Assembly: GCA_030615745.1 (NCBI GenBank)
Contig: JAUWYR010000035.1
Span: forward strand, 1 to 25,101
Source of the DNA: Candidatus Zixiibacteriota bacterium
GTDB lineage: Bacteria > Zixibacteria > MSB-5A5 > SM23-73-2
Length of the DNA stretch: 25,101 nt
Direction: 5' to 3'
The notes below the pieces were generated by a model. It did not search any database. It was given only the letters and a program-made list of their open reading frames with translations, and was not told the origin of the DNA. A program made the position numbers and the translations under genes. This document shows, one piece after another, positions 12,978-15,080 of the stretch. Numbering within the stretch: the stretch's first letter is position 1; every line of letters begins with the position of its first letter.

Positions 12978-13066
12978 TTCGGCTAACGTTTTCGCGGGTA
13001 TGCGAAGTTCCACCAAAGGCGCGGTTTGGGCGAGCGTACCGATCCGCAAACACGCTGTTAACCGCC
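12978..13066 (-). other. attC-like recombination site 1
   Basis: On the minus strand the element opens with GGTTAAC (13063-13057) and closes with GTTAGCC (12987-12981), which pair with one G-T wobble. A second inner pair follows (GTTTGCGG against CCGC...AAAAC, with a small bulge). This is the outer-box/spacer/inner-box layout of integron attC sites. It starts about 13 bases after the stop of the methyltransferase-like gene. It is GC-richer than its surroundings. The inner pairing is imperfect, and GTTAGCC departs from the GTTRRRY core at one position. Confidence 0.5.
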
Positions 13067-13078
13067 GTTTGATACCCT

Positions 13079-13636
13079 TCAAAACAAGAATGGTATAAAC
13101 ATTTTGGTCTGTTTCATATAGCTTTGATAAGCAGGACCAAAAAAACTTATATTCTCAGCTTCCTCTATCTTAGCAGTCATTGTCCAAAAGATGGTCGTAA
13201 TCACAGCCAAACAAAGACTAAGCCATAAAGGGTGTTTAAAGAACACTCCCCAAGTTCCAAATAATCCTGAACTATACATAGGATGCCGAATGTAGCGATA
13301 AGCCCCTACCCTCACCAATTCGGTTGTCTTTTCGATACCTATCAATGACCGGTCATCCCGCTCGCTTTTGGGTTTCCCCACCCTATGCAATAATTGAAAA
13401 CCGTGAATAACCAAAAACAAAGAGACGATTAAAAGGAGCCAGGAAATTACCTGATGAGGACTGAACGGTTCATAAAACCAATAATCAAGGTTTAACAGAA
13501 CTAAGGCCAGAATTGATTCAAAAGCGAAGAAACGGTAAAAGCCATGGGAGCGGGGATTGCGCAATGAATGCCAGGACAAATAGACAAATCCTGCAGTTGC
13601 GCCCAGAAAAATAACTGATTTTAATAGAATGGACAT
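13079..13636 (-). CDS. Isoprenylcysteine carboxyl methyltransferase-like membrane protein
   Basis: A 185-residue integral membrane protein with about four hydrophobic helices (~5-22, 38-54, 62-80, 136-152). The C-terminal half has the ICMT/PEMT signature: VGAYRYIRHPMYSS (~110-123), Glu158/159 after the last helix, and FGPAYQSYMKQT (~166-177). These residues bind S-adenosylmethionine in the family. The bacterial substrates are mostly unknown, and prenylated proteins are not expected. AGGTGA six bases before the ATG at 13636 is a good ribosome site, and it overlaps a GTTAGGT core-like motif at 13651-13645. The gene is followed by an attC-like palindrome, so it looks like a cassette-borne gene. 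Confidence 0.8.
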   Translation of the reverse strand: MSILLKSVIFLGATAGFVYLSWHSLRNPRSHGFYRFFAFESILALVLLNLDYWFYEPFSPHQVISWLLLIVSLFLVIHGFQLLHRVGKPKSERDDRSLIGIEKTTELVRVGAYRYIRHPMYSSGLFGTWGVFFKHPLWLSLCLAVITTIFWTMTAKIEEAENISFFGPAYQSYMKQTKMFIPFLF

Positions 13637-13662
13637 ATCGTTTCACCTAACAGTAGCTGATA

Positions 13663-13781
13663 GTTCAACATAAGTTTATCTCTACTAATAAAATAACAGT
13701 CGCAGCTAATCTTAAGCATATGAAGTCTTTTTTCCAAAGGACTAATCGGCTTCGGCAATTCCTATTACCGAAGCATCAGAG
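13663..13781 (-). repeat. Dispersed repeat, copy A
   Basis: About 110 bases closely matching 14437-14550: a hairpin GCTTCGG...CCGAAGC around AATAGGAAT, a GGTTAGTTCC-like stretch, ATGCTTAAGATTAG, then TTTATTAGTA-GATAAACTTATGTT. On the minus strand it ends at GTTGAAC (13669-13663), a match to the GTTRRRY integron core. No paired left arm is seen next to it, so it may be half of a former recombination site now serving as a leader of the methyltransferase gene. Confidence 0.55.
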
Positions 13782-13800
13782 ACATTATTAATCCTTTCTT

Positions 13801-13872
13801 GCATAACCATCGAGTTCACCTGCCGCTATGAGCACAGCGTTTCAGTGGTCCGAGTGCAGCGATTGGTTATGC
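13801..13872 (-). other. attC-like recombination site 2
   Basis: A 72-base element. GCATAACCA and TGGTTATGC are perfect inverted ends. The stem continues as TCG/CGA with one extra base on one side, then TGCAC/GTGAA pairs imperfectly. An unpaired base in one arm is a hallmark of attC sites. The antitoxin stop codon lies within the first bases of the site, as is usual in integron gene cassettes. It is the best-formed of the candidate sites here. Confidence 0.6.
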
Positions 13873-14085
13873 TTTTTTTTCTTGGCGATGAATGATTTTA
13901 GCTAAAGCACGAAGTGTTTCATTTACAGATTCTCTATCTGAAAAAACTTTTGCTACATCCGGATCAAGAACAATCACATTAGAGCCCTTCTGGTAACGTT
14001 TTGCATATTTGCCTCTCACTCCTGAGCTAAAATCATACTCGTCTAACATCTCTGGCTTATTGTTTTTTTTCTGTACCTTCTTCAT
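13867..14085 (-). CDS. brnA: BrnA-type antitoxin
   Basis: A 72-residue protein with the pattern of antitoxins that accompany BrnT toxins: [48 protein letters not shown]. The C-terminal half is a ribbon-helix-helix DNA-binding segment, which in the family binds the toxin and represses the operon. ATG 14085 is chosen because AAAGGA lies just upstream and the family starts here; a longer frame from 14154 would run deep inside the toxin gene. It overlaps the toxin gene by 29 bases. The final TAA falls inside the attC-like site 2. Confidence 0.85.
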
Positions 14086-14350
14086 ATGTCTTCCTTTCTC
14101 GTCGTGTTGCTCGACGTGCACTAATAATACGAATCCTATTACCTCGTTCTGCATGAACTACAACCAACAAACGATATTTGTAAGAAGACCCAATAATAAC
14201 AAATCGTTCTTCATCTATCGAATGTAATGGGTCTCTAATAGTAAGAGATAATGGATCTCCAAATACTGTTGTAGCCTCTTCAAATGAAATTCCATGTTTC
14301 TTTATATTTTGCTGTGCTTTATTCCTATCCCATTCAAAAAGTAAAGACAT
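14057..14350 (-). CDS. brnT: BrnT-type ribonuclease toxin
   Basis: A 97-residue protein of the BrnT (DUF497) family: [87 protein letters not shown]. BrnT has a RelE-like RNase fold, cuts RNA and halts growth when freed from BrnA. The [13 protein letters not shown]....LL.VVH and IRIISAR(R)A boxes are complete, so it looks intact. The order toxin then antitoxin is normal for this type II system. An AAGGGA ribosome site precedes the ATG. Toxin-antitoxin pairs are common stabilising cargo of cassette arrays, matching the flanking attC-like sites. Confidence 0.9.
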
Positions 14351-14436
14351 TCAAGTCCCTTTTGGATATATAACGTTACTATTCAACAAGATAAAGTCTG
14401 GAATATTTTTAGCTTCTATGCAATAATTTTGAATAA

Positions 14437-14576
14437 GCATAACATACGTTTATCTGTACTAATAAAATTACAATTACCTCTAATCTTAAGCAAATAAAAT
14501 CCTTTTTCTAAGGAACTAACCAGCTTCGGCAATTCCTATTACCGAAGCATCAGAAGGTTCCAACGACATGCTATGC
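14437..14576 (-). other. attC-like recombination site B containing dispersed repeat copy B
   Basis: A 140-base element running on the minus strand from GCATAGCATGTCG (14576-14564) to CGTATGTTATGC (14448-14437). The ends are complementary with a G-T wobble and one extra base. Inside are a GGAAC/GTTCC stem and a 10-bp GCTTCGGTAAT/AATTGCCGAAGC hairpin. The TAG stop of the upstream gene is inside the left arm. Most of the interior matches copy A at 13663-13781. The layout is like long attC sites of chromosomal integrons, whose sites are related to each other within one array. Confidence 0.5.
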
Positions 14577-15005
14577 ATCATTGTCTATCAGCTTACTTGC
14601 GATAGCGTCCAATGTTTCTAAATCAGGATAAGCTGAGTACCCTGTGAGAGTGTGCTTAGGCACGAAGTATTCGAAACCTTTTGACGCATAGATTTTATTT
14701 GCGCCCTCAAGAACTACAATCTCGTCATCAGTCAGGACTTTCTTGGCTTGGGCAAGAGCTGCATAAGCTCGCATCAAGTTGTGCCCGAATTCCACTTTAA
14801 CCTCCGTTTGCCTCTTTGCCTGAAGGTGTTTCGATTTGATCTCAAGCTCGATTGCACGGCAAAGCAGGAAATAAGGAACAGGGGAAAACTTGTGTGGAGA
14901 CCTGAAGTCTTGCTTGCATTTATAATAATGCGTCGCCCACCTATGGAACGCATCAGGTGATAGGTTTAGGTTAATGCCCTCCATTTGAATTCTTGATTCG
15001 TTCAT
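14571..15005 (-). CDS. HEPN-like hypothetical protein
   Basis: A 144-residue soluble, mostly helical protein. The segment SPVPYFLLCRAIELEIKSKHLQ followed by EFGHNLMRAYAALAQAKK resembles the two core helices of HEPN-type domains (RAIELxLKA and GHNLxxL), which in other proteins bind nucleotides or cut RNA. The usual R-x4-6-H catalytic motif is not clearly present. GGAGG six bases before the ATG at 15005 supports the start. Upstream, 18 bases before the start, lies GTTAGGC, the canonical integron core. The stop is inside the attC-like site B. It therefore looks like a complete single-gene cassette. Confidence 0.65.
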   Translation of the reverse strand: MNESRIQMEGINLNLSPDAFHRWATHYYKCKQDFRSPHKFSPVPYFLLCRAIELEIKSKHLQAKRQTEVKVEFGHNLMRAYAALAQAKKVLTDDEIVVLEGANKIYASKGFEYFVPKHTLTGYSAYPDLETLDAIASKLIDNDA

Positions 15006-15022
15006 ACGAAACCTCCAATGCC

Positions 15023-15080
15023 GCCTAACATAAGTTCATAGGTACTAATGAAATTGCAATCACGGCTATTTTTAAACATA
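15023..15080 (-). repeat. Dispersed repeat, copy C (partial), with GTTAGGC core
   Basis: On the minus strand about 57 bases (ATGTTTAAAAATAGCCGTGA... to AACTTATGTTAGGC) match the right-hand half of copies A and B. The final GTTAGGC (15029-15023) is the canonical integron core. Its left half is missing, so this marks the upstream edge of the cassette-like block, next to the end of rtcB. Confidence 0.5.

Follow-up and report, generated by a model that had tools for sequence, protein, structure and literature searches.

The 25,101-nt stretch of DNA analysed here (the window) is one entire contig (C46) of a 2.28-Mb genome that is 98.55% complete. On its minus strand, between rtcB (15201-16646, minus strand) and a xylose-isomerase-like gene (12022-12849, minus strand), lie three gene units accompanied by palindromes and integron-like core sequences; the question is how these units came to stand together and which sites delimit them. 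The first-pass annotation read the block as a CALIN-type cassette array with three attC palindromes and no integrase in view. An integron-derived block without an integrase in view is borne out, and two attC sites are present rather than three; the CALIN label misses the attI-type sites, one of which stands at the head of every unit. All evidence presented here is sequence comparison in MAGs.

As first annotated, the genes of the block are all on the minus strand. The first encodes a protein of 144 aa (14571-15005), for which no match was found in Pfam, NCBIfam, PADLOC or PDB; its earlier label, HEPN-like, is therefore unsupported. The predicted fold is helical only, with a pLDDT of 40 (no confidence), and is too poor for a structure search. 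The second unit was described as a toxin-antitoxin pair, and this holds: brnT (14057-14350) carries the BrnT domain (PF04365, E=1.8e-31), and an overlapping partner ORF sits at the expected BrnA place, the combination that defines brnTA. For this partner (13867-14085), which has no family match, an inner ATG is preferred to the start of the longest ORF (13867-14154). The third gene (13079-13636, 185 aa) is isoprenylcysteine/phospholipid-methyltransferase-like (PF04191, E=3.7e-9), in agreement with its first description. An Rfam search of the block gave nothing above threshold. In gene sense, the block reads attI-type site 1 (core at 15023), 144-aa gene, dispersed repeat, attI-type site 2 (14437), brnT/brnA and attC (13801-13872); this is followed by the repeat again, attI-type site 3 (13663), the methyltransferase gene and a second attC (12981-13063).

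Integron attC sites end in a GTTRRRY core; their RYYYAAC and GTTRRRY ends pair, and an extra unpaired base is present in one L arm. Candidate sites were scanned for pairing of the R''/R' and L''/L' arms, for which scores of at least 42 and at least 36 are expected 0.02 and 0.3 times per 25 kb of shuffled sequence, respectively, and were compared with an arm profile of nine attC sites from other genomes, whose arms were read by eye. The cores GTTAGCC, GTTATGC, GTTATGC and GTTAGGC are all located where they were first placed. The attC of the brnTA cassette (13801-13872, minus strand; R'' GCATAAC, R' GTTATGC) is strong. It scores 42-44.5 for pairing, a level expected 0.005-0.02 times in 25 kb, and its two arms together reach 48.5 bits against the attC arms of other genomes, whereas 100 shuffled versions of the window gave 22.8 at most. 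It folds with R''/R' fully paired (z -2.7 to -3.1) and with paired L arms that contain a bulge, as is characteristic of attC; its R' is one base off GTTRRRY, as are those of several attC sites in the arrays described below. The brnA stop codon (TAA, 13867-13869) had been placed inside a palindrome arm, and that arm is indeed GCATAAC, the R'' of this site. The cassette begins with TTATGC, exactly the sequence that its own R'' would predict after insertion of a cassette circle.

The attC of the methyltransferase cassette (12981-13063, minus strand; R'' GGTTAAC, R' GTTAGCC) is of moderate strength and is weak when taken alone. It starts 15 nt past the stop codon; its pairing score of 36-38.5 is significant only given that place (about 3e-4 to 7e-4 expected per 60 nt after a stop), and is reached by 1-4% of block shuffles. 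The single-strand fold is not unusual. This unit begins with TTGAAC; the prediction for an inserted circle would be TTAACC. The TAACAGCGTGTTTGC arm occurs once more in the same genome (on C35) among the loci fetched, and a search for the attC arms in plasmids gave no useful match. If this site counts, the block has at least two attC sites within a few kb and no intI, and would qualify as a CALIN.

The palindrome proposed as a third attC, at 14437-14576, is rejected: its ends do not pair when folded, its inner hairpin (GCTTCGG..CCGAAGC) belongs to a dispersed repeat, and its right core is the end of another element, attI-type site 2. The 144-aa gene has no attC after it. The palindromic repeat itself, GCTTCGGCAATTCCTATTACCGAAGC, lies at 14523-14548, with a second copy at 13749-13774 between the brnTA attC and attI-type site 3, and similar copies on C28, C33, C41 and C69. 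As a side observation, this repeat (GATGCTTCGG..AATTCC..CCGAAGC) is scattered genome-wide (L002-L006, L013), frequently together with another palindrome, GCATCGGCAAA..TTTGCCGATGC.

In attI sites, the R box GTTRRRY marks the insertion point and an L box stands before it. Directly upstream of all three units, and overlooked in the first-pass annotation, is an element of about 60-75 bp that ends at a GTTRRRC-type core. All three copies are on the minus strand: site 1 (15023-15095; core GTTAGGC, 15023-15029) upstream of the 144-aa gene, site 2 (14437-14509; core GTTATGC, 14437-14443) upstream of brnTA, and site 3 (13663-13735; core GTTGAAC, 13663-13669) upstream of the methyltransferase gene. They match a model (R3) of 19 element copies, none of which is from the window genome, with E-values of 1.1e-14, 7.7e-15 and 3.6e-14, respectively; the next best match beyond these three has a value of 0.047. 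Their ends read GATAAAC-NTAT-GTTRRRC; cores 1 and 3 fit GTTRRRY, and core 2 is one base off. A genome search using the sequence that separates the first gene from the second also matched site 3; at the DNA level, sites 2 and 3 are 85% identical over 114 bp. Site 1 is an orphan copy, with no palindrome repeat ahead of it. It contains a 25-codon leader ORF (15002-15079, minus strand) in which AAGGAG precedes the ATG and the stop codon (TGA) shares bases with the start codon (ATG) of the following gene; in place and kind, this putative leader resembles ORF-11/ORF-17 of attI1. No clear promoter was found before the attI copies of the window.

Other interpretations of the element were tried. It was considered as the 5' part of a gene for a secreted protein (frame ..VILLVQINLC*) and as a conserved peptide (..DCNFISTDKPML..); each frame is open in some copies only and is shifted or startless in others, so the element is not claimed to encode a protein. 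A Xer/dif site, judged by eye, was also discarded because its 6-bp central region is incompatible with the arms seen here.

The element is rare. Within the phylum, it is present in only 6 of 132 genomes, all from the order of the window, where it is found before unrelated genes in relatives. A diverged copy precedes the methyltransferase gene in another genome (G004) too, where the protein is 79% identical; the methyltransferase unit is therefore old or shared. A search key derived from the aligned copies matched 16 stretches in 84,980 species genomes, where about 0.1 would be expected (an estimate). The matches come from WOR-3, Stahlbacteria, Zixibacteria, Cloacimonadota, one Thermoplasmatota MAG (which may be a binning error) and further bacteria; about 60 bp of the element is conserved across phyla. 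None was found in viral contigs.

The aligned copies all stop at the same point, the GTTRRRC-type core. Over 46 copies, information is mostly 1-2 bits per column from about -37 to -5, is weaker further upstream, and drops to about 0.1 bits per column right after the core. Conservation up to GTTA is partly built in, since the search key selected copies on those bases; the fall after the core was not selected. The last 18 bases, GATAAAC-NTAT-GTTRRRC, have the layout of an attI site: an L box (GATAAAC), 4 nt and an R box (GTTAGGC). The same arrangement of L box, spacer and R box occurs beside the integrase genes of relatives (TATAAAC-AATA-GTTAGGC in G010 and CATAAAC-ACTA-GTTAGGC in G008). Integron-integrase remnants lie 160-200 bp upstream on the same strand at 5 of the 46 copies (one each in G010, G149 and G151 and two in G153), where about 0.01 would be expected by chance (an estimate), and a frameshifted integrase C-terminus directly precedes the Cloacimonadota copy (L142). 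The L box and R core, together with this position behind integrase remnants elsewhere, identify the element as attI. Adjacency to intI thus holds for the element family through remnants, and not for the three copies in the window; an intact integrase beside this attI subtype was seen in none of the genomes. Sequence, boundary and the neighbouring remnants in other genomes together establish the attI nature of the element as far as sequence can.

Integrase remains of the window genome itself belong with other attI types. As the first-pass annotation had advised, an integrase and attI were looked for elsewhere in this genome: an intact integron integrase is absent from the 98.55%-complete assembly, which holds only short C-terminal fragments, on C1 (18689-18814), C8 (24850-24948) and C54 (20151-20249). 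Behind two of these three fragments comes a TATACAG(T/A)CTGTATAA palindrome and, after it, a GTTAGGC or GTTAGAC core, a second attI type. The other tyrosine recombinases of the genome fall below the TIGR02249 cut-off, and the genome does not qualify as carrying a complete integron.

Varied integrase remains and attI types were also observed in other genomes. Truncated integrase 3' ends are retained with attI in several of them. At one locus (G044:C80, L047), a left attC half is joined directly to the final 68 codons of an integron integrase, and attI and cassettes come after these. In G151, G149 and G154 (L165, L172, L161), C-terminal integrase fragments are preceded by short new 5' ends and by TTGACA..TATAAT sequences resembling promoters, as though the platform had been retained for expression after integrase loss. 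The WOR-3 genomes G149, G153 and G146 (L152, L163, L154) have integron-integrase-like ORFs that appear intact and carry a fused N-terminal stretch; a palindromic attI of another type lies downstream. A distant genome, G132, has five attI-like sites (L086, L099, L105, L106, L107), each before a different gene and with an inverted repeat (GGTTTATACGGCC..GGTCGTATAAACC) ahead of GTTAGGC-type cores; it also has integrase fragments, and its sites look like another attI type.

Copies of the element stand in tandem in WOR-3, Stahlbacteria and further MAGs, and singly in Cloacimonadota and the Thermoplasmatota MAG. Seven copies are found within 14 kb of G153 (WOR-3), with more on other contigs; G146 (WOR-3) has 12, G150 has seven (six in 6.1 kb) and G147 (Stahlbacteria) has five on one 15-kb contig. 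These genomes were picked because they carry the element, so the copy numbers are not prevalences. Several copies lie directly behind attC, and tandem copies are often preceded by attC and a promoter. In G153, an attC core (GTTATAC) runs directly into CCCACCACACTCCCCTTTTATTTTTCCC, which is followed by a TTGACA-17-TATAAT promoter and then by attI; in G146, a GTTATAC attC core lies about 50 bp ahead of the attI core. In a comparison of orthologous arrays from two WOR-3 genomes (93-98% identical), unlike DNA with different attC arms gives way to shared DNA exactly at the G/TT of the attC core at one junction; the remaining breakpoints of the pair lie away from cores. No empty version of the window locus was found in relatives. 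The RtcB and xylose-isomerase-like genes, which flank the block, are not neighbours elsewhere in the order, so no empty-site comparison could be made.

Taken at the level of sequence, the block is probably an integron relict (probability roughly 0.87) in which three head-to-tail cassettes were each captured at their own copy of an attI-type site and the integrase gene was lost. Each of these sites would end at a G/TTRRRC-type crossover, and the DNA beyond it would have come in as a cassette; two cassettes would end in attC hairpins, while the first would have the next attI copy instead. The cassettes would have been placed by an integrase of this family that has since been lost or acts in trans, and the attI copies may have multiplied by integrase-mediated recombination between cores. 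Each copy may also aid expression of the gene behind it, through a leader ORF and ribosome-binding site in the window and through a promoter in the WOR-3 copies.

It is improbable that the block is an ordinary CALIN of three attC-ended cassettes, preceded by repeats that have no meaning for recombination. Two attC sites and the lack of an integrase would suit such an array, but there is no third attC, and the repeats upstream of the units terminate at a core and, in other genomes, lie behind integrase remnants. The boundary analysis and the match to an independent model already largely refute this reading. There is likewise little to be said for the element as a mobile or conserved 5' regulatory leader of a regulon, consisting of a promoter and leader peptide and having no part in recombination. 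Several copies do contain a TTGACA-17-TATAAT promoter and a leader ORF with a ribosome-binding site, and the element is conserved with the methyltransferase between the window genome and G004. However, a leader would not account for the abrupt end at the GTTRRRC core, beyond which the DNA is unrelated, the L/R box layout, the position just behind integrase genes, the adjoining attC sites or the swap junction at G/TT; a leader role is in any case compatible with attI, since attI1 has ORF-11. Least credible are attG-like genomic secondary sites hit independently by cassettes: most elements do lie away from integrase genes and attG insertion is reported (PMC12901181), but about 60 bp is conserved across phyla with integrase remnants adjoining, and the source cited describes attG sites as diverging from the classical att sites.

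Beyond the integron relict in the window, a broader interpretation is offered tentatively. An array class might exist in which the mobile unit consists of gene, attC, promoter and attI, with the integrase acting in trans, and in which units have crossed phyla; these would be Zixibacteria, WOR-3, Stahlbacteria, Cloacimonadota and possibly Thermoplasmatota. Since such a unit would bring its own promoter and docking site, any array position or orphan copy could capture and express cassettes.

In the textbook integron, there is one attI and one promoter; consequently, only the first cassettes are well expressed. If the interpretation is correct, an attI before many cassettes (plus a promoter in WOR-3) would be a different solution to the expression problem and would give new cassettes many points of entry. 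To our knowledge, surveys based on attC search for attI in only a few classes, so orphan attI sites would escape their notice. The conserved 27-60 bp element can serve directly as a search key with which the idea can be tested in public genomes.

Repeated attI sites that link cassettes without an integrase were not found described; a literature search for orphan, duplicated or multiple attI sites, in which subscription journals were poorly covered, returned no relevant paper. Several known systems share parts of the arrangement. Like a CALIN, the block has several cassettes, two attC sites and no intI in view; it differs in having only two attC sites and an attI-type site at the start of every unit. 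Delta-attI-type cassettes are similar in that an attI copy replaces the expected attC, here that of the 144-aa gene; one attI1-gene-attI1 case is known, and attI-gene-attI units excise at over 97% in the assay concerned (PMC12901181). Those cassettes mostly carry 14-18 nt attI remnants in class 1/2 mobile integrons (PMC12901181), whereas the sites described here are 60-75 bp long, number up to seven per array and occur in uncultured phyla.

Gene-less promoter cassettes are known from Vibrio superintegrons (PMC11014356) and from Treponema integrons (PMC6557892). The gene-less promoter stretches of WOR-3 likewise start at an attC core and would serve the next gene; they end in attI, whereas the known ones are delimited by attC sites (PMC11014356). 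The attI1 site with ORF-11/ORF-17 (PMC8876359) also has a short leader ORF and ribosome-binding site running into the core; its sequence is unrelated, and coupling in the window is putative. Finally, the attI sites of archaeal integrons (PMC9668308) lie just downstream of intI, are semi-conserved across phyla and share the same insertion point. Those sites are described beside intI; in contrast, the attI-type sites reported here are mostly orphan and repeated.
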